Shown in pieces: positions 13,894 through 24,016 of a stretch of 64,000 nt of DNA (position 1 is the first letter of the stretch; the number at the start of each line of letters is the position of its first letter). The notes beneath the pieces are model-generated. The model made no database searches, had not been told where the DNA came from, and saw nothing but the letters and a program-made list of their open reading frames with translations. Both the position numbers and the translations under genes were made by a program. The stretch comes from Candidatus Tectimicrobiota bacterium. Its GTDB lineage: Bacteria > Tectomicrobia > Entotheonellia > Entotheonellales > Entotheonellaceae. The DNA is taken from assembly GCA_026005175.1 (NCBI GenBank), contig BPKO01000012.1:1-64000 (forward strand). Reading direction: 5' to 3'.

Positions 13894-15594
13894 ATGAAGC
13901 GGATGTCCCTCAGCGAGATCTTGCTGGCCACCACGGCCCTCACTCCAGAGCAGCTGGCCCAGGCGCAGGAGTTGAGCGCCCAGAAGCACCTGCGGCTCGA
14001 GGAGGTGCTGTTGCAGCAGCGCCTTCTCAGCGAAGACGAACTGCTGCAGGCACAGAGCCAGCAGCTTGGCCTGCCGTACTGGAAAGAGCTGCCCGACAGC
14101 GAGTTTGATCCTGCCCTCATGCTGCAGGTGCCGCTGGCCTTTGCCCGGCAGCACAAGCTGGTGCCCATCCGTAAAGAAAACGGGGCGGTGCTGGTGGCCA
14201 CCTGCCGGCCGCTGGCGCTGCAGCCCCTGGACGACCTCAGTGCCCTGCTCGGTGCCCCGGTGGAGCCGGTGCTCAGTAGCGAGCGCGAGATCATCAGCGC
14301 CCTCAACCGCCTCTATGACACCAGTGCCCAGGCGGCCGCCAAAGTCATCGAGGACCTCGACGTGAGGGCGCTCGACAAGCTCGCCCACGAGCTCGAAGGG
14401 CCGCAGGACCTCCTCGACCAGGACTCCGAAGCCCCCATCATCCAGCTGGTCAACTTGATCCTGGCGCAGGCGGTGCGCGACCGTGCCAGCGACATCCACA
14501 TCGAGCCCTTCGAGCGGGCCCTGCGCGTGCGCTACCGTATCGACGGGGTGCTGCACGACGTGCTCACCCCCCACAAGCGCCTGCAGGCGGCCATTACCTC
14601 GCGGCTCAAGATCATGGCCGACCTCAACATCGCCGAAAAACGCCTGCCGCAGGATGGCCGCATGGCCATCCGGGTGCGCAACAAAGACATCGACATCCGG
14701 GTCTCCGTGATTCCCACGGCTTTTGGCGAGCGCGTGGTGCTGCGGCTGCTCGACAAGTCCAGCATGCTCATGGCGCTCGAAGACATCGGCATGGCCCCGG
14801 ACGTGCTGCGGGTCTACAGTCGCCTCATCCGCCGCTCACACGGCATCATCCTGGTTACCGGCCCCACGGGCAGCGGCAAGACCACCACGCTGTATGCCAC
14901 GCTGCAGCGCCTCAACTCGCCGCAGGTGAACATCATCACCGTGGAAGACCCCATCGAGTACCAGCTCGACGGCATCGGTCAGATTCAAGTCAACCCCAAA
15001 ATCGACCTTACCTTTGCCAACGGCCTGCGCTCTATCTTGCGGCAGGACCCCGATATCATCATGGTGGGCGAGATCCGCGACCGGGAGACGGCCGAAATCG
15101 CCATGCAGGCGTCGCTGACCGGCCACCTGGTGCTGAGCACCCTACATACCAACGATGCCGCCAGTGCTATCACCCGCCTGCGCGACATGGGGATCGAGTC
15201 TTTCCTGATTTCGTCGTCGGTGCTGGCCATCATGGCGCAGCGCCTGGTGCGGCTGCTGTGCCGCAGCTGCCGTGAGCCCTTTAGGCCTGACCCCGAACTC
15301 CTGCAAGAACTGGGGCTTTCCCCGCAGGCGTGCCACCAGGTGCAGTTTTACCGTGGGCGCGGCTGCGAGGCCTGCCGCGGCACCGGCTACCGGGGCCGCA
15401 CCGGGATTTACGAGCTTCTAGTCATCGATGACCCCATCCGTGCCCTCATCATGCAGAACGCCAATGCGGCGATGATCAAAAACGCCGCGGTGGCCAGCGG
15501 CATGCGCACGCTGCTGCACGACGGCGCCAGCAAGGTCTTGGCCGGGCTGACCACCCCCGAAGAAGTCTTGCGGGTGACGCAGGAGAGCGAGTAG
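13894..15594 (+). CDS. gspE: Type II secretion / pilus assembly ATPase GspE
   Basis: Hexameric cytoplasmic ATPase that powers the secretion pseudopilus. The 566-aa product is intact. It has an N-terminal GspE_N domain (MSHEN type), the ASDIHIEPFERALRVRYRIDG region, Walker A GPTGSGKTT, the Asp box VEDPIEYQ, Walker B RSILRQDPDIIMVGEIRD, a His box TGHLVLSTLHTNDA and the zinc tetracysteine CRSC...CEAC. It follows gspD by 27 bp. The tetracysteine fits GspE and PilB/MshE alike, and GspE is preferred because of gspC in the same operon. Confidence 0.95.
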   Translation: MKRMSLSEILLATTALTPEQLAQAQELSAQKHLRLEEVLLQQRLLSEDELLQAQSQQLGLPYWKELPDSEFDPALMLQVPLAFARQHKLVPIRKENGAVLVATCRPLALQPLDDLSALLGAPVEPVLSSEREIISALNRLYDTSAQAAAKVIEDLDVRALDKLAHELEGPQDLLDQDSEAPIIQLVNLILAQAVRDRASDIHIEPFERALRVRYRIDGVLHDVLTPHKRLQAAITSRLKIMADLNIAEKRLPQDGRMAIRVRNKDIDIRVSVIPTAFGERVVLRLLDKSSMLMALEDIGMAPDVLRVYSRLIRRSHGIILVTGPTGSGKTTTLYATLQRLNSPQVNIITVEDPIEYQLDGIGQIQVNPKIDLTFANGLRSILRQDPDIIMVGEIRDRETAEIAMQASLTGHLVLSTLHTNDAASAITRLRDMGIESFLISSSVLAIMAQRLVRLLCRSCREPFRPDPELLQELGLSPQACHQVQFYRGRGCEACRGTGYRGRTGIYELLVIDDPIRALIMQNANAAMIKNAAVASGMRTLLHDGASKVLAGLTTPEEVLRVTQESE

Positions 15595-16821
15595 GTGCCG
15601 GTTTACACTTACAGCGCGCTTGACCAGCGCGGCCGGGCAACCAAAGGCATCATCAACGCCGACAGTGCGCGGGCAGCACGCAGCAAGCTCCGCCAGGCGG
15701 GGCTCTTCCCCACCGAGCTCCTGGAAGTCGAAAAAGCTGAAGCCCGCCAAAGCGGCCACCGCCTGGCTGCTTTGGCCTTGTGGCGGCGCGTGCGGTCGCA
15801 GGACCTCACAGTGATGATTCGCCAGTTTGCCACTCTGCTGGCGGCCAACCTCACCGTGGTCGATGCCCTCACCGCGCTCATCGAGCAGACGGAAAACGCC
15901 ACCCTGAAAAAGACCCTCATCCAGGTCCGCGAGCGGCTCAACGAAGGCAGCAGCCTGGCGGCGGCCCTTGCCGAGCACCGCCGCGTCTTCTCCCCCCTGA
16001 TGGTCAACATGGTACGCGCCGGCGAAGCCAGCGGGGCGCTGCCCCCGGTGCTGCTGCGCCTGGCCGACTTCAGCGAGCGCCAGCTCGAGACCCGCAAGCG
16101 TATTACCGCCAAGATGTACTATCCGCTGTTCATGCTCGCAGTAGGCACTCTGGTTCTCTTTGCGCTTTTGACTTATGTGGTGCCAACCGTCACGACGATT
16201 TTTGCCACCATGCAGCAAACGCTGCCGTGGCCCACGCGGGTGCTCATCGCGGTGAGCACTTTCTTGCGCCGCTTCTGGTGGCTCCTGGCCTTGGGGGTCG
16301 CGGGACTGCTGTTGCTTCTACAGCGCTACGGCCACACCGAGGGCGGTCGCCAGCGGTTTGACGCCTGGAAGCTCCGGGCCCCGCTTGTGGGCAAGCTGGC
16401 CCTCAAAGTGGCCATGGCCCGCTTTACCCGCACCTTGGGCATGCTGCTGCGCAGCGGCATTCCCCTGCTCGACGCCCTCGACATTGCCAAGGCGGTGGTC
16501 AACAACACGGTGCTCGCCGCCGCCCTTGACAAAGCCCGTGAGGCGATTCGCGAAGGGTCAGACATCGCCACCCCGCTCAGGACGAGCGGCCACTTCCCGC
16601 CCCTGGTCGCTCACATGATCGCCATTGGAGAAAAAAGCGGGCAGCTCGAGGAGATGCTGCTGCGGGTGGCCGATGCCTACGACAACGAAGTCCATACCAG
16701 CGTGGAAGGCCTGACTTCTCTGGTAGAACCGGTTATCATCGTCATCATGGCGGGTGTGGTCTTCGCCATCATGCTGGCGGTGCTGCTGCCCATTTTTGAG
16801 ATCAATACCTTGATTCGCTAG
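15595..16821 (+). CDS. gspF: Type II secretion inner-membrane platform protein GspF
   Basis: Polytopic platform protein interacting with GspE and the pseudopilus. The 408-aa product has the two-fold T2SF repeat: RQFATLLAANLTVVDALTALI in the first half and RTLGMLLRSGIPLLDALDIA in the second. Membrane helices lie at about residues 172-196, 220-242 and 378-402. It starts with GTG directly after the gspE TAG (no gap), which implies coupled translation. Confidence 0.94.
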   Translation: MPVYTYSALDQRGRATKGIINADSARAARSKLRQAGLFPTELLEVEKAEARQSGHRLAALALWRRVRSQDLTVMIRQFATLLAANLTVVDALTALIEQTENATLKKTLIQVRERLNEGSSLAAALAEHRRVFSPLMVNMVRAGEASGALPPVLLRLADFSERQLETRKRITAKMYYPLFMLAVGTLVLFALLTYVVPTVTTIFATMQQTLPWPTRVLIAVSTFLRRFWWLLALGVAGLLLLLQRYGHTEGGRQRFDAWKLRAPLVGKLALKVAMARFTRTLGMLLRSGIPLLDALDIAKAVVNNTVLAAALDKAREAIREGSDIATPLRTSGHFPPLVAHMIAIGEKSGQLEEMLLRVADAYDNEVHTSVEGLTSLVEPVIIVIMAGVVFAIMLAVLLPIFEINTLIR

Positions 16822-16833
16822 TGCGGAGGAGCC

Positions 16834-18330
16834 ATGGCCAAGCACGCCCTTGGCATCGAGCTGGGTAGTCACCACCTGGCTTTGGTTCAGCTCACCGGTA
16901 CGGGCAAGGCCTACACGCTCACCGCGGCTGCCCAACGCCCCCTGCCGGGGGTTCCCGAGGAGGAACACGCTGCCTCGTGGCGGCAAGCCCTGCAAGAGCT
17001 GCTCGCCCCCCTCTCTCTGCGTGGGGACACCGTGGTCGTCACCTTGCCTGCGGCTCGCGCCGTGCTGCGATACCTCACCTTCCCGTTTAAGGATCCGCGG
17101 CGCATCCGCCAGGCCCTGCGGTTTACCCTCGACGAGCACATGCCCTTTGAGCCCGAGGAGGTGATTGCCGACTTTCAGCCGCTTCCGAGCTCCAGCGACG
17201 ACGCCACGTCGCTTCTGGCGGTCGCCACGCCCCAGACGGGCATTGCCGAGGCGCTGTCGCTCCTCCAGGAGGCGGGTCTGGAGCCCGTTATCGTCGATCT
17301 CGATGTCTTTGCGCTAGCCCATGCCGCTTGGTGCGGCTCGCGTGCCCTGCCGCACCATACGGTGGTGCTCGACTTGCAGCCCACGCATACGCTGATGACC
17401 TTTCTCCACCAAGGCACCCCCGTCTTTGCCCGCAGCCTGGCCTACGGGTTGCCCTCGCCCGAGGTGCCACTGGAGAGCTATGTGGCGCGCTTGAGCAAGG
17501 CGCTGCAACACTCGCTGTACGCCTGCGAAATGACCCTTACGGTGCCCTATACCCCTGACCTTCTCCTTTTGGCAGGGGCGCACCGAGACCGCCTCGACAT
17601 TCTGGCCACCGCGCTTCAAGAGGCACTCGAGGTGCCGGCAGCGGTCTGGCAAATTAGCGCCGACGCCTACCGCCCTAGTGCCATGAGCCCGCCGCCTGCC
17701 GAGCAGACACGTTATGCGGTGGCTTTCGGTGCCGCCCTGCGCGCGCTGCACCGCCATCCCATTGGCATCAACCTGCGACGGGAGCGTTTTGCCCTGCACC
17801 GCGAGGTCGCTGAACTGCGCGGTCGCCTCGTGGGCCTTGGCCTCATGCTCATGGCCGTCGCCGCCCTGGGGGTGGGCAACCTTTACCTCCACAACCAGTA
17901 CAAGGCCCAGCGCTACGCCCAGCTGCAGCGCGAAATCGCCCAGGTGTTCCACGCCACCCTGCCCGACACGCGCCTGGTGCACCCCGTGGTCCAGATGCAG
18001 GAACAGCTGCGCCGCCTCAGCGAGCGCCTGCGCGCGTTTGGCGGCTTGACCGGCACGGCCCTCTCTGGCCTCCAGATCTTGCGCGAAATCAGCGCCCGCA
18101 CCCCCCCCACAATCACCGTCAACGTCGACAACCTGACGATTACCGACGAGACCATCGACCTTAGCGGCACCACGAACGCCTACGATGACGTGGTCAAGCT
18201 TAAGGAAGCGCTCGAAGCGTCTCCTTACTTCGCCGCGGTCAAAATCACCAGCACCAAAACCGACGTGAGCAGTAAGGTGGCTTTCAAGCTCACCATCCAG
18301 ACGGTCAAAACCCTGGAGAACCTGTCATGA
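16834..18330 (+). CDS. gspL: GspL-like protein: PilM-type actin-fold domain fused to PilN-type membrane domain
   Basis: Platform protein of 498 aa that recruits the GspE ATPase. Residues 1 to about 300 are a PilM/GspL cytoplasmic actin-like domain (LGIELGSHHLALVQL at the start; VLDLQPTHTLMTFLHQG). After INLRRERF a single membrane helix at about 331-352 leads to a periplasmic PilN-like part with a coiled-coil (about 355-400) and a small ferredoxin-like fold. In type IV pili these are two proteins, PilM and PilN; here they form one chain, as in GspL. GGAGGAGCC precedes the ATG. The end overlaps gspM by ATGA. Confidence 0.88.
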   Translation: MAKHALGIELGSHHLALVQLTGTGKAYTLTAAAQRPLPGVPEEEHAASWRQALQELLAPLSLRGDTVVVTLPAARAVLRYLTFPFKDPRRIRQALRFTLDEHMPFEPEEVIADFQPLPSSSDDATSLLAVATPQTGIAEALSLLQEAGLEPVIVDLDVFALAHAAWCGSRALPHHTVVLDLQPTHTLMTFLHQGTPVFARSLAYGLPSPEVPLESYVARLSKALQHSLYACEMTLTVPYTPDLLLLAGAHRDRLDILATALQEALEVPAAVWQISADAYRPSAMSPPPAEQTRYAVAFGAALRALHRHPIGINLRRERFALHREVAELRGRLVGLGLMLMAVAALGVGNLYLHNQYKAQRYAQLQREIAQVFHATLPDTRLVHPVVQMQEQLRRLSERLRAFGGLTGTALSGLQILREISARTPPTITVNVDNLTITDETIDLSGTTNAYDDVVKLKEALEASPYFAAVKITSTKTDVSSKVAFKLTIQTVKTLENLS

Positions 18331-18869
18331 CCCTGTGGCAGAATTTGCAGCTGCGCGAGAAGCTGTTCGTCCTCGGCGCGGCGGTGGCCGTTCTTCTGGC
18401 CCTCTTATTCCTGCTGGTCATCGATCCGCTGCTTGCCCGTGCCGCCCTGCTTGACCGCCAGATCCAGGCTGCCGAGCGGCAGTTGCGCGAGCTGCAAGAC
18501 TTGCGGCGCCAGTACTTGCACCAAAAACAGCTGCTCGATCAGATCAATGCCCGGCTGCGGCAGCAGCAGAACTTTTCGCTTTTTTCTAAGCTCGAAGAGC
18601 TGGCGCGCGAGAGTGGCCTGCGCGAGAAACTGCTCTACATGAAACCGGTGGTCAGTGCTCCTAGCGAGGCGTACAACGAAGAAGCCGTGGAAATCAAAAT
18701 GGAAGGGGTCACTCTGGCGCAGCTGGTGCGTTACTTGCAGCAGGTGGAAACCGCGCCCCAGTTCCTCAAGATCAAGCGCCTGCACATCAAGCCGCGCCTG
18801 GACGACCGCCAGCAGCTCAGCGCCGTGTTTCGGGTCTCGACGTTTACCCTGAAGGAAGAGAAGCGCTAA
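18327..18869 (+). CDS. gspM: GspM/PilO-like inner-membrane protein
   Basis: 180-aa bitopic protein with a short cytoplasmic start, a membrane helix at about residues 14-35, a periplasmic coiled-coil (LDRQIQAAERQLRELQDL) and a C-terminal ferredoxin-like domain (VEIKMEGVTLAQLVRYLQQVE). This is the GspM/PilO plan. The ATG overlaps the gspL stop, so the proteins are made in register, as expected for partners that dimerise. It is the last gene of the operon; its stop overlaps that of the convergent aldo/keto reductase gene. Confidence 0.85.
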   Translation: MTLWQNLQLREKLFVLGAAVAVLLALLFLLVIDPLLARAALLDRQIQAAERQLRELQDLRRQYLHQKQLLDQINARLRQQQNFSLFSKLEELARESGLREKLLYMKPVVSAPSEAYNEEAVEIKMEGVTLAQLVRYLQQVETAPQFLKIKRLHIKPRLDDRQQLSAVFRVSTFTLKEEKR

Positions 18870-19831
18870 CCCTCCGCCAGGAAGTCCTCCAAGCCAGCGC
18901 CCAGCGCTTCGCGGATGGCCGCGCGCTCGGCAGCGCTCAGCGGCGGCAAGTGGCTGGCCGCCAGGTTTTCTTCTGCCTGTGCCACGGTCTTGATACCAGG
19001 GATGACCACCGACACGGCAGGCTCGTCGAGCACAAAGCGCAGTGCGGCTTGCGCCAGGGTGCGCTCTCCGGCGCGGGCCAAAAAGCGCACTTTGTTCACC
19101 ATCTCTACCAGCGCCGCCAGGTATTCCCGCGGCCAAGCAGCGCGAAAGTCTCCCTCGGCAAAGGCGGCCTCGGCCGTGTACTTGCCGGTGAGCAGGCCGT
19201 TGGCCAGCGGCTCGCGCACGATGATGCCCACGTCGTGCGCCTGCGCCAGCGGGAAGAGCTCCTCGCGGGCTTCTGGCCGCAGCACGTTGTAGGTCACCTG
19301 AATCACCTCGGGCTTGCCGCTGTAAATGGCCATCATCCCCTCGTAGGGGTCGTGCACCGAGACGCCGTAAGCGCGGATCTTGCCCTGCTGCTTGAGCTCG
19401 TCAAGGACGGCGTAGTGCTCGGCACGCTCAAGCAGCATCAAGGGTGGGTTGTGCAGCTGGTACAAGTCGATATAGTCGGTGCGCAGCCGCTTGAGGCTCT
19501 TTTCCAAGGCAAAGCGGATGTAGTCGGCATCGAAGTTCTTGCGAAAGCGGCCGTGGTAAAAGTCGTTGCCTACTTTGGTGGCAATCACGCACTGGTGCCG
19601 GCGTTTTTGCAGCGCCTGCCCTAACAGTTTTTCGCTCAGCCCGTGCCCGTAAATGTCGGCAGTATCAAAGAAAGTGCACCCTAAGTCCAGTGCCCGCGCG
19701 ATGGCCCGCAGCGACTCGGCGTTGTCCGTGGGGCCGTAGCTGTGGCCGTGTTTGTTGCCGCCAATGGCCCAGGCGCCAAAGCCTATCTCGGAAACCTGCA
19801 ATCCGGTCTTTCCCAAGCGTCGGTACTGCAC
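18866..19831 (-). CDS. Aldo/keto reductase
   Basis: NAD(P)H-dependent oxidoreductase of the AKR superfamily, 321 aa, TIM barrel. All four catalytic positions are visible: Asp and Tyr in FFDTADIYGHG, Lys in VIATKVGND and His in DLYQLHNPPL. GIKTVAQAEEN near the end is the cofactor loop. Substrate not predictable. Starts with GTG; single gene, divergent from the methyltransferase to its right and convergent with gspM (4-bp stop overlap). Confidence 0.93.
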   Translation of the reverse strand: MQYRRLGKTGLQVSEIGFGAWAIGGNKHGHSYGPTDNAESLRAIARALDLGCTFFDTADIYGHGLSEKLLGQALQKRRHQCVIATKVGNDFYHGRFRKNFDADYIRFALEKSLKRLRTDYIDLYQLHNPPLMLLERAEHYAVLDELKQQGKIRAYGVSVHDPYEGMMAIYSGKPEVIQVTYNVLRPEAREELFPLAQAHDVGIIVREPLANGLLTGKYTAEAAFAEGDFRAAWPREYLAALVEMVNKVRFLARAGERTLAQAALRFVLDEPAVSVVIPGIKTVAQAEENLAASHLPPLSAAERAAIREALGAGLEDFLAEG

Positions 19832-20613: not shown

Positions 20614-21160
20614 TCAGCCCTCACCCAGCAGCTGCGCAACGAGGGACTTGATCACCGCGTCGGCGCGGGCAATGACCTCTTGGGGAGAAATGGCCGCCAA
20701 GGGGTGCTCGATGGCCACCACGCGCGCCTGCGGGCAGCCGTATGTGGCGGCGTGCGCCGCTGCCGCATCCATGAAGGCCTCGGTGCAGACGACCACCGTG
20801 GGCACGCCGCGAACTTCCAAGGCCATGGCGTCGTGCAAACTGCACGCCACACAAGAGCCTCAGTCGCCAATGGCAGTGATCACGCACTGGCAGTGCTGCG
20901 CCAGCTCTTCCAAAAGCTCCGGCGCGGCCGGGCGCGAGTAAATGAACTTGCTGCGCCACAGGGCGTCGGCCAGGCCGTACTGCGCCTGCAGTACGTCGCG
21001 GATGCGGGCCAGGAGCTTGTCGGCGTTGGGCTTGCGGTTGTCGAGAAAGCCGGCCACCGCCCCCTGCAGGGTGGGCAGCGGCGGGGGCCAGGCGCCGCGG
21101 CGACGTGGGTTCTTCAGCCACGGGAGACAGCAAGCCGAGTCGGTGCAAGCGGTCGTCCAT
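20614..21160 (-). CDS. UGSC-family protein with in-frame UGA: predicted selenoprotein
   Basis: The family is named after a Gly-adjacent U/C-G-S-C motif (unknown glycine/selenocysteine-containing protein); its biochemical role is not known to me. Here the frame reads ...CVITAIGD, then TGA at 20860-20862, then GSCVACSLHDAMALEVRGVPT (20 residues shown in part), exactly the family motif with U100 in place of Cys. Both halves match the family: FLDNRKPNADKLL before, VPTVVVCTEAF and HPLAAISPQEV after. A hairpin follows the UGA as a bacterial SECIS would. A separate one-base break at the G-run (plus-strand C 21060-21064) is needed to join the ATG at 21160; corrected length 181 aa. It ends the acyl-CoA ligase operon. 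The selenocysteine call is inference from the motif. Confidence 0.85.
20827..20848 (-). promoter_or_regulatory. Putative bacterial SECIS hairpin of the UGSC gene
   Basis: Read on the minus strand: GTGC (20845-20842), loop AGTTT (20841-20837), GCAC (20836-20833), extended by GGC (20848-20846) pairing with GCC (20829-20827) over a 3-nt bulge. The apical loop starts 19 nt after the UGA and has G as its second base, which agrees with the known bacterial SECIS pattern (loop roughly 16-37 nt downstream, G in the first two loop positions). An alternative 6-bp TGGCGT/ACGCCA pairing is also possible. Confidence 0.6.
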
Positions 21161-21181: not shown

Positions 21182-22210
21182 TCAGGAGACGATTTTGCGC
21201 GTGACCGAGCGCGAGCCCCAGCCCGGTAGGACCACCGAGTGCTTGCCCGCCCCGCCGGCCACGAGCACGACGATGTCTTCGGGATGGCGCGTGGGCGGCA
21301 CGAGGGCGTCGGGGTTGTGGTGGTCCACCCAGCGTGGCCACAGGTTGCGCTGGGTATCGGCGCCGTACATGCCGCCCAGGCGCAGCAGCCGCACCGGCTG
21401 GCGCGCATGCTCGTAGAGAAAGGCCTGTACGTCGCGCTTTTTCCAGCCGCTGGCAGCAATGGTGGCGGCATGCTCCGGCGACAGGATGAGGAAGCACTCC
21501 CCTCCCACGTACAGGTGGTTGCTGCCCAGCGTGGACAGGCAGTCGGCAATGACGGTGAGCAAGTCACGCGCGTTGTCGCTGCCGTGGTTGTTGACGTTGT
21601 GCGGCGCCTCGGCCGCGTAGACGGTGACCGTGCTGTCGTCGGCCTGAAAGCCGCGAGAGACGTGCAGCGGCTCCCAGGGGTTGGCCGCTTCATTTTCGGC
21701 AATACAGTATGTGTACTTGCCGGGATGGCCGAACGTCGCTTTGTCCACCACGCCGGGAATGGCGCCGCCGATGTTAACCAAAATGAGCTGTACGGCCCGC
21801 CCGATGGTGGCGTTGGCCCGCCAGCCCGGGCCAAAGAGGTTGTGGCCGCAGTTGACCTGCAGCTCTTTGACGATGGGGCCGTTGAGGATGAGCAGCGGGG
21901 TGGCCATGTGCGTTGAGCAGAGCACGCCGTTGAGGTTGAAGCGGGGATCCATAAGCGCTTCGAGGGCGGTGAGAATCACCGGCATGTACTCTGGCAGGCA
22001 GCCGGCCATCACCGCGTTGGTAGCGATTTTTTCCACCGTGGCCTTACCGCCCCGCGGCGGCAGCTCCGCGATAACCTCGCTGGCAGCACGGCCGGAGCGC
22101 TCGATCATCGCCCGCACGCGCTCCACGGTCGGCGGCACCACCGGCAGGCCGTCGGTCCACCCCTGCTCGTAGAAAAACTCGATGGCGTCGACCGTCTCAT
22201 CGGGCTGCAC
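21182..22210 (-). CDS. Conserved large partner protein of the UGSC locus, function unknown
   Basis: 342-aa soluble protein with no recognisable nucleotide- or haem-binding motif. Features include YEQGWTDGLPVVPPTVERV near the start, conserved-looking Cys positions (MAGCLPEYMP, VLCSTHMATP, QVNCGHNLFG, GGECFLIL), EAANPWEPLHVSRGF, and NNHGSDNARDLL. It resembles proteins found next to UGSC genes, and I infer the two work together. GTG 22210 is chosen over ATG 22252 because GGAGGGG lies at the right distance and the latter would overlap the CoA ligase by 56 bp. The GTG still overlaps the ligase stop by 14 bp. The UGSC gene follows after 21 bp. Confidence 0.7.
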   Translation of the reverse strand: MQPDETVDAIEFFYEQGWTDGLPVVPPTVERVRAMIERSGRAASEVIAELPPRGGKATVEKIATNAVMAGCLPEYMPVILTALEALMDPRFNLNGVLCSTHMATPLLILNGPIVKELQVNCGHNLFGPGWRANATIGRAVQLILVNIGGAIPGVVDKATFGHPGKYTYCIAENEAANPWEPLHVSRGFQADDSTVTVYAAEAPHNVNNHGSDNARDLLTVIADCLSTLGSNHLYVGGECFLILSPEHAATIAASGWKKRDVQAFLYEHARQPVRLLRLGGMYGADTQRNLWPRWVDHHNPDALVPPTRHPEDIVVLVAGGAGKHSVVLPGWGSRSVTRKIVS

Positions 22211-23879
22211 GGCCTTCCCCTCCTCCCTGGCCCGCCTGCTGTTCTTGGGCAATCATGGCAGCAATGCGCTGCCGCAGCACGTACTTCTGGATCTTGCCGC
22301 TGGGCGTCATAGGGAACTCGGAAACCACTTCCAGCCGCTCGGGGAAGTACTGCTTGGCCAGCTGCTGCGCCTGCAAGTAGGCCACCATCTCCTCAAACGT
22401 GAACGTCTCGCCCGGTTTGGGAATGACAAAGGCGCAGGCCTTTTCCTGCAGCCGCGGGTCAGGCATGGCAACAATGGCCACGTTTTGCACTTTGGGGTGC
22501 TTGTGCAGGAGGTTTTCCACTTCCACCACGGGGATGTTCTCCCCGCCGCGGATGATGATATCTTTGCTGCGGCCGCTGATGCGGATGTAGCCGTCGGCGT
22601 CGAGCACCGCCCGGTCGCCGGTCTTGAACCAGCCGTCGGCGGTCCAGCTCTCCGCGGTGATCTGGGGCCGCTGGTAGTAGCCGGCAAAGTGCTGCGGCCC
22701 CCGGCACAGCAGCTCGCCTTCCTGCCCAGGCGGCAGCGGGCGCCCGGCCTCGTCGACCACTTGCACCGCCATGCCGCGCAGGCAGCAGCCGTCGGTACCA
22801 AAAACCTTCTCGGGCGGGTCTTCGACCCGGTTCACCGTCACCAGCGCGTTTTCCGTCATGCCCCAGCCGGCGAGTACGGCGCACCCCAGGCGCTGGCGCC
22901 CGTCGATGACCAGCTGGCGCGGAATGGCGGCACCGGCGCAGAGGAAAATGCGCAGGGTCTGCACGTGCTGCGGCGTCAGGTTGGGGGCATACGTTAAGTC
23001 GCTCAGAAAGGGCGTGGCGCCCATCGTCCAGGTAACGCCCTCGGCGGCAATCAGCTCCACAGCCCGCGCCGCATCCCACACGTCCATGTACACGCCGGTG
23101 CCCCCGAGCACGGTGGGCATGTGCACGCCGTAAAGGTAACCCGTCTGATGGCCAAAAGTGGAAGCCATGAGCACCACCTCGTCTGCCGTTAGCCGCAAGC
23201 GCTCGATGAGGCTGAGGACCGGGCACAGAATGGTGTTGTGGGTGTGCATGACCCCCTTGGGCTCGCCGGTGGTGCCGGAGGTAAAGATGATTTCGGCCAG
23301 GGCATTGGGATTGACCTGCCGGGCGTGCAGGGCGGCCACATCGCCCTTCTCTTCCCAGGGCGTGGTCAGCAAGGCGTCAAACGAGAGCATGTCGTCGGGC
23401 ACGTCCTTGCCGATGACGTAGATGCGCTCTAGAGAAGGCAGCTCGGGGCGCAGCTCGCGCATCATGGCGGTGTAGTCAAAGCCGCGAAAGGTGTGGGGGA
23501 TAATCATCACCTTGGCCTCGGCCAGGCGCAGCATAAAGCGCAGTTCGCGCTGGCGGTAGATGGGGATGAGCGGGTTGCCCACGGCACCGATGCGGCTCAG
23601 GGCGTACTGGATGACCACGAACTGGTGCCAGTTGGGAAGCTGGAACGACACCACGTCACCTGGGCCAAGGCCCATGTCGAGGAAAGCGAGGGCCAGGCGA
23701 TCCACCAGCCGCACCAGCTCGGCGTAGGTCAGACGCCCAAAGGGATCGACGATGGCCGTCTTGTGCGGGTAGCGCCGTGCGGCCGCATCAAGGTAGCTGC
23801 AGATGGTGGTATTGGGCCAGTAGCCGGCGGCCGTGTACTGGGCAATCGTCTCTGGCGGAAAGAGCGATTCGCTCGCCAT
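22197..23879 (-). CDS. AMP-forming acyl-CoA synthetase (cyclohexanecarboxylate/medium-chain CoA ligase-like)
   Basis: 560-aa member of the ANL superfamily: activates a carboxylic acid with ATP to the CoA thioester. Motifs: P-loop IFTSGTTGEPKGVMHTH, A5-like AGWGMTENALV, A7 GWFKTGDRAVLDADGY, hinge IRISGRSKDIIIRGGENI and catalytic Lys in MTPSGKIQK. The ATG at 23879 (GAGGACGAAGAAAC upstream) is preferred to an upstream in-frame start. It leads a three-gene minus-strand operon with the partner protein and the UGSC selenoprotein. The substrate is unknown. Confidence 0.93.
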   Translation of the reverse strand: MASESLFPPETIAQYTAAGYWPNTTICSYLDAAARRYPHKTAIVDPFGRLTYAELVRLVDRLALAFLDMGLGPGDVVSFQLPNWHQFVVIQYALSRIGAVGNPLIPIYRQRELRFMLRLAEAKVMIIPHTFRGFDYTAMMRELRPELPSLERIYVIGKDVPDDMLSFDALLTTPWEEKGDVAALHARQVNPNALAEIIFTSGTTGEPKGVMHTHNTILCPVLSLIERLRLTADEVVLMASTFGHQTGYLYGVHMPTVLGGTGVYMDVWDAARAVELIAAEGVTWTMGATPFLSDLTYAPNLTPQHVQTLRIFLCAGAAIPRQLVIDGRQRLGCAVLAGWGMTENALVTVNRVEDPPEKVFGTDGCCLRGMAVQVVDEAGRPLPPGQEGELLCRGPQHFAGYYQRPQITAESWTADGWFKTGDRAVLDADGYIRISGRSKDIIIRGGENIPVVEVENLLHKHPKVQNVAIVAMPDPRLQEKACAFVIPKPGETFTFEEMVAYLQAQQLAKQYFPERLEVVSEFPMTPSGKIQKYVLRQRIAAMIAQEQQAGQGGGEGRAAR

Positions 23880-24016
23880 GTTTCTTCGTCCTCCTGTCGA
23901 CCTCACCCCGAAGAAGCGGCGCTGCGCTAATGACATAGCACATTTTTGCCGCGGTCACAAATACCCTGCCGTGTCCGGATATGCAGCCTGGCGCCAAACC
24001 TGGTACCATTGTCGCC

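Follow-up and report, generated by a model that had tools for sequence, protein, structure and literature searches.

An in-frame UGA in a UGSC-family gene of a Candidatus Tectimicrobiota bacterium very likely encodes selenocysteine, and the gene pairs with a near-constant partner

INTRODUCTION

Among the described systems closest to the locus reported here is GrdB, which releases ammonia from glycine with a carboxymethyl selenoether as the proposed intermediate and thioredoxin as the reductant (PMC10298544). GrdB-like proteins have also been proposed to cleave the carbon-fluorine bond of fluoroacetate (PMC10838667). The UGSC family itself is already known. In the 2008 GOS selenoproteome, which counts 255 UGSC sequences, the family ranks with the most abundant selenoproteins of aquatic metagenomes, and a fusion of UGSC to an unknown domain termed 'Unknown_1' is reported (PMC2398784). 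The original prediction for the present locus described the family as known by its motif and unsolved in its biochemical role. No published functional study of it was found in the open literature.

The window analysed here is the whole stretch of 64,000 nucleotides of DNA at the start of contig BPKO01000012.1 (assembly GCA_026005175.1). The genome it belongs to comprises 3.99 Mb in 14 contigs and is 77% complete. The window encodes another UGSC member, which had been expected to be split and missed by standard annotation. That expectation holds in part, as Pfam and NCBIfam by now have models for the family, under the name '(seleno)protein', and such annotation need not overlook it entirely. 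Coordinates of the features discussed are collected in Table 1.

Table 1. Features of the UGSC locus, in positions of the window.
Feature	Coordinates	Strand	Basis
UGSC-family selenoprotein gene	20614..21160	-	Stop TGA 20614-20616; profile matches with TGA read through; N-terminus by alignment with sister gene L055
In-frame TGA, predicted Sec codon of U-G-S-C	20860..20862	-	TGA kept in 40/40 TGA-spanning homologues from the same and related genomes
SECIS-like hairpin	20832..20846	-	6 bp, loop GUU, 19 nt from UGA to loop; within bSECIS constraints (PMC13188914)
Run of five C (C5), reading-frame change, probable one-base assembly error	21083..21087	-	Sister gene alignment; other frame breaks in the genome
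Partner gene, 356 aa	21185..22252	-	Adjoins or is fused with UGSC in nearly all loci
Acyl-CoA ligase (AMP-binding enzyme)	22197..23936	-	Upstream; PF00501 E 8e-84; best NCBIfam TIGR03208 636 bits, below cut-off 792
Aldo-keto-reductase-like gene	18866..19831	-	71% identity to L055:6407-7357; family name by sequence inspection

RESULTS

The in-frame UGA and the UGSC family

Around the codon the minus strand reads GTG ATC ACT GCC ATT GGC GAC TGA GGC TCT TGT GTG GCG TGC AGT TTG CAC GAC, so that TGA GGC TCT TGT supplies U-G-S-C at 20862-20851 within the protein context ...VITAIGD-U-GSCVACSLHD.... With the TGA translated through, the UGSC body is a single open frame from about 21096 to 20617. This read-through ORF matches the Pfam UGSC profile PF24696 with E 2.6e-47 and 161.6 bits (cut-off 25) over profile positions 22-171 of 172, and NCBIfam NF041046 with E 4.8e-43 and 146.7 bits (cut-off 125). 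Both scores lie above their cut-offs, which bears out the predicted family membership. The placement of the TGA at the reactive residue of the U/C-G-S-C motif is likewise seen in the minus strand and conserved in homologues. Each of the 40 homologues read has it at the U position of this motif, which is UGSC or, rarely, UGTC or UGGC. The nearest homologue, which belongs to a different genus of the family and is hereafter called the sister gene (L055:5838-6380; 67% identical), likewise carries a TGA at this position. Since that gene and all 40 TGA-spanning homologues carry TGA rather than TGT or TGC, a sequencing error at the codon is ruled out as far as such comparison reaches.

A bacterial SECIS model with a loop of 3-9 nt, a stem of 4-16 bp, a G in the first two loop positions, a distance of 16-37 nt from the UGA and an MFE of at most -7.5 has been described (PMC13188914). 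The hairpin found here occupies nucleotides 17-31 counted from the U of the UGA (CGUGCA-GUU-UGCACG) and agrees with that model in every respect, its 3-nt loop opening with G then U and its energy being -7.6 kcal/mol. Over 31 distinct sequences 89.9% of cells were paired, with two-sided changes in five of eight pairs, and the covariation score was 0.315 compared with 0.097 for shuffled and at most 0.153 for slid controls. The folding energy fell below that of synonymous recodings only where the folded stretch covered the hairpin site. TGA genes show all five core pairs in 95% of cases, where synonymous shuffling would give 22%; in Cys genes, the strongest control, the figure is 7%, with 10% expected. 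As the core pairs are kept in TGA genes and stay at expectation in Cys genes, the hairpin goes with the UGA rather than with the encoded protein. An Rfam scan of the region returned sub-threshold matches only; among them, a match to RF02826, a Streptomyces sRNA, at 20709-20845 of the minus strand inside the UGSC coding sequence (28.9 bits, cut-off 50) is probably due to chance.

Selenocysteine machinery of the genome

The predicted selenoprotein depended on the genome encoding selA, selB, selD and tRNA-Sec, and all four are present. The tRNA-Sec, with anticodon UCA (tca), scores 76.5 bits, and the genes score 637.8 (selA), 391.5 (selB) and 378.9 bits (selD), selA and selB adjoining each other on one contig. 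In genomes with TGA-form UGSC genes a tRNA-Sec of at least 67 bits was found in 10 of the 10 tested, one of which (G077) holds just a contig-edge UGSC fragment; several Cys-form genomes have no match above 52 bits. The selD ORF (C9:120631-121554, L016) contains one in-frame TGA of its own, which makes the selenophosphate synthetase a probable selenoprotein as well.

Given the machinery, the conserved TGA and the TGA-specific downstream hairpin, the window gene is almost certainly a genuine Sec-containing member of the UGSC family, its UGA being read as Sec by way of the downstream SECIS and the organism's own SelA, SelB, SelD and tRNA-Sec. The selenoprotein reading offered by the original prediction is thus right, about as certainly as sequence allows.

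A frame change near the N-terminus

The two flanks of the TGA had been taken to form one protein. This is correct from about 21096 to the stop but not over the full 20614-21160, where a frame change near the N-terminus was overlooked: the span, at 547 bases, does not divide by three. MDDRLHRLGLLSPVAEEPTSPRRLA, which begins with the ATG at 21160, lies in a frame other than that of the UGSC body, and the 25 N-terminal codons are affected. When the sister gene (MWDQFRHLGLMIPIDEELTPQRRAAPPLQTL...) was aligned over the N-terminus, a single gap fell in the C5 run. Frames are also broken elsewhere in the assembly, in the essential infB (several frames), the UGSC paralogue on contig C6 (two) and the partner gene on contig C2 (two); therefore a one-base assembly error at the run is likely the simplest account of the frame change. 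Position 21160 is plausible as the gene start, though not as the reading frame. A GTG at 21057-21055, in frame with the body, is a less likely start and would cost about the first 30 residues. Given the break, the window copy itself could be damaged. The infB region (C7:10013-10664 and its neighbourhood, L013) is split over several frames in an assembly seemingly rich in one-base indels, and many such indels may be the cause of its 77% completeness.

Paralogues, homologues and the Sec/Cys distribution

The genome encodes seven UGSC paralogues, each with exactly one in-frame TGA. In total, 11 of 98 genomes, this one included, encode UGSC, and every motif-spanning match contains a single TGA. 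Cys forms, with TGY at the aligned position, were found in 80 GTDB loci by a search pattern that could find Cys forms only. In a quick tree the seven paralogues fall in seven separate places, six with copies of other genomes as neighbours and one without a resolved position, so the expansion to seven copies appears to be old. By the same quick method, on a tree with many long branches, Sec and Cys were interchanged at least four times. TGA-form UGSC genes also occur on the conjugative plasmids p2-T1 of Acidovorax sp. T1 (L095:5467-5958) and pBEN of Paracoccus versutus (L097:5429-5842); at the p2-T1 site the gene table, which is incomplete, shows just a 291-nt hypothetical.

A near-constant partner gene

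Directly upstream of the UGSC gene in the window lies a partner gene that matched no Pfam or NCBIfam family, and 27 members of the partner family gave no consistent match to Pfam. The genome has seven UGSC genes and seven partners with no orphan. Of 40 Sec-form loci, 38 have a partner beside UGSC (a contig-edge fragment accounts for one of the other two), as do 76 of 80 Cys-form loci; the partner may be upstream or downstream. In at least 11 loci the two form a single ORF of about 550 aa with UGSC first; a natural fusion lies at L089:11091-12677. The pairing spans relatives of the organism, Actinomycetota, Burkholderiales, Rhodobacterales and haloarchaea. The partner beside the sister gene is 79% identical to that of the window. 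Among partners one Cys is near-invariant, and there is no conserved iron-sulfur set of cysteines. The pairing fails rarely, as for the Cys-form UGSC genes of Microbacterium lacus SDZm4 (L164) and Microbacterium sp. BR1 (L166), which have no partner in the fetched stretch. The UGSC protein and the product of 21185-22252 very likely make up one two-subunit enzyme.

Gene neighbourhood

The acyl-CoA ligase gene overlaps the partner ORF by 56 nt and is probably part of the same operon. A sigma-70 promoter scan found no promoter. In the window and in the sister locus alike, an aldo-keto-reductase-like gene lies 3' of UGSC on its strand; in the sister genus this homologue follows UGSC directly. Other UGSC neighbours include CoA ligases, CoA transferases, enoyl-CoA hydratases, aldehyde dehydrogenases and TRAP/TTT transporters. 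In raw counts, 14 of 128 UGSC loci have trxB in the fetched flanks and five of these also have trxA; Arthrobacter sp. ERGS1:01 (L100:4680-7854) shows the order trxB-trxA-partner-UGSC. No trx genes were found near the UGSC modules of close relatives in 40 loci. On the plus strand of the window, ORFs at 13894-18869 resemble by eye a pilus/type II secretion ATPase, an inner-membrane PilC/GspF protein and PilM/N/O-like proteins.

Relation to GrdB and predicted structure

Aligned by hhalign, the UGSC profile matches the C-terminal Sec domain of GrdB (E 3e-7, probability 93, 96 columns, 30% identity), with Sec column on Sec column and the HPL motif on the HPLG motif. The window protein weakly matches residues 324-416 of TIGR01917 (E 0.004). 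As its 16.1 bits compare with a cut-off of 602, the protein has a homologous Sec domain but is not a GrdB. The partner shows no relation to the GrdB profile (probability 0.1). A search for GrdA in the 77% complete genome gave no match, nor did the control genomes, so that the search had no positive control; on that basis the glycine-reductase pathway as a whole seems not to be reproduced in this organism.

An AlphaFold2 model of a natural UGSC-partner fusion (pLDDT 93, pTM 0.93) predicts the UGSC half to be a parallel alpha/beta, Rossmann-like domain in which Sec (residue 94 in our count) sits between strand 86-92 and helix 95-110. The structural matches of this half in the PDB are Rossmann-like, with Z of 9-11 (up to 11.2), and, as far as a model can indicate, do not favour the thioredoxin-like fold assumed earlier for UGSC. 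By sequence, no relative of UGSC was found in the PDB, where the best match (E 0.0012) is a designed protein, and none of the partner at E up to 1. A fold search with the partner placed class I fumarate hydratases first (Foldseek E 3e-4; VIA Z 4.9, rmsd 5.4, 169 aligned); these matches are weak and were set aside as evidence of the partner's function.

DISCUSSION

On balance, the data are best explained if the Sec-containing UGSC protein and its partner act as a two-subunit GrdB-like reductase, which we consider probable. Two other accounts of their chemistry have to be weighed, each of them rather unlikely. Under the first, which is what the selenoprotein literature has assumed, UGSC proteins would be general thiol-disulfide oxidoreductases of the thioredoxin-like kind and would not cleave a substrate. 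The UxxC motif and the trxB/trxA neighbours of some loci fit such a role. However, the model and its best structural matches (Z 9-11) are of the parallel alpha/beta Rossmann-like type, the near-constant partner of some 340 aa is fused to UGSC in many species, the neighbouring genes are catabolic rather than concerned with oxidative stress, and the domain is homologous to that of GrdB. The second account keeps the two-part enzyme and gives it other chemistry, such as hydratase, dehalogenase or lyase activity, with Sec or Cys acting as a nucleophile and no net reduction taking place. It would agree with class I fumarate hydratases being the best, if weak, fold matches of the partner and with the Sec-form modules of relatives having no trx genes nearby. 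Yet a Z below 8 may reflect merely a common arrangement, the partner has no conserved iron-sulfur cysteine set, and homology to GrdB points to reduction.

A pseudogene, in which the TGA would be a genuine stop codon and the change of frame near 21085 another lesion, is very improbable. One gene with two departures from an open frame might suggest decay, but the seven paralogues and every full-length relative share this TGA position together with a TGA-specific covarying hairpin, protein conservation persists downstream of it, and the frame change lies in a homopolymer run of an assembly whose essential infB is broken likewise. As TGA also ends the UGSC gene itself (20614-20616), the in-frame codon is always at the U of UGSC and the genome has a complete Sec system, genome-wide reassignment of UGA (code 4 or 25) has next to no chance of being right, even though several genes have in-frame TGA codons.

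Returning to the GrdB-like reductase, the likeliest mechanism is a tentative one, drawn by analogy, that we regard as possible: the UGSC subunit would be equivalent to the Sec domain of GrdB, working by Sec attack, loss of a leaving group and a reset by thiol. With the substrate bound to the partner subunit, the Sec selenolate at the start of the helix would attack a substrate carbon adjacent to a carboxyl or carbonyl group, and a leaving group would then be expelled. A selenoether or selenenyl-sulfide might be resolved by the cysteine of the UxxC motif, with thioredoxin or another dithiol resetting the active site. The seven paralogous UGSC-partner pairs of the genome may differ in substrate. 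Substrate binding by the partner is something we infer only, because that subunit has neither a sequence relation to GrdB nor a firm fold match. Given the homology to the GrdB domain and the trx, catabolic and transport neighbours, a substrate-specific, thiol-driven reductase in carboxylic acid breakdown is proposed. It is conceivable, if doubtful, that UGSC and its partner are a widespread undescribed two-subunit selenium/thiol reductase, occurring also in aerobic bacteria and haloarchaea, in which thioredoxin is the reductant and a GrdB-type Sec/Cys domain on a new scaffold breaks bonds between carbon and a heteroatom in carboxylic acids or their CoA esters, here in seven substrate-specific copies.

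The partner, the natural fusions, the homology to the GrdB Sec domain and the trx neighbours turn 'function unknown' into a testable proposal, and the added interest of the case lies in the near-constant unnamed partner and the link to GrdB-type chemistry.

Compared with known systems, the window protein is not set apart from the UGSC family (PF24696; NF041046, 'UGSC family (seleno)protein'; 'UGSC-containing protein' in GOS, PMC2398784), with which it shares a full-length match, the UGSC motif, the TGA/Cys forms and the SECIS; only the N-terminal frame break of the window copy differs. Unknown_1 of the GOS selenoproteome (PMC2398784) is, like the partner, a conserved unknown domain fused to UGSC, and it is probably the partner domain. 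A further relative is encoded in the genome itself, where a GrdB/PrdB-like ORF (C5:119379-119765, L093) carries, immediately beyond its GRDB profile match, a UPVC motif that includes an in-frame TGA, and is probably another selenoprotein. This 'UPVC' protein has a UxxC Sec motif and belongs to the same superfamily as UGSC, but its motif and domain layout differ and its profile similarity to UGSC is weaker (E 7e-4, probability 26). With the C-terminal Sec domain of GrdB (TIGR01917, PF07355), UGSC shares the aligned Sec, the UGxC motif, the helix that follows and an HPLG-like motif, and the trxA and trxB genes beside UGSC in some loci add to the likeness. Unlike in GrdB, UGSC is a separate small subunit or an N-terminal fusion domain, and the remainder of GrdB is replaced by the unrelated partner.
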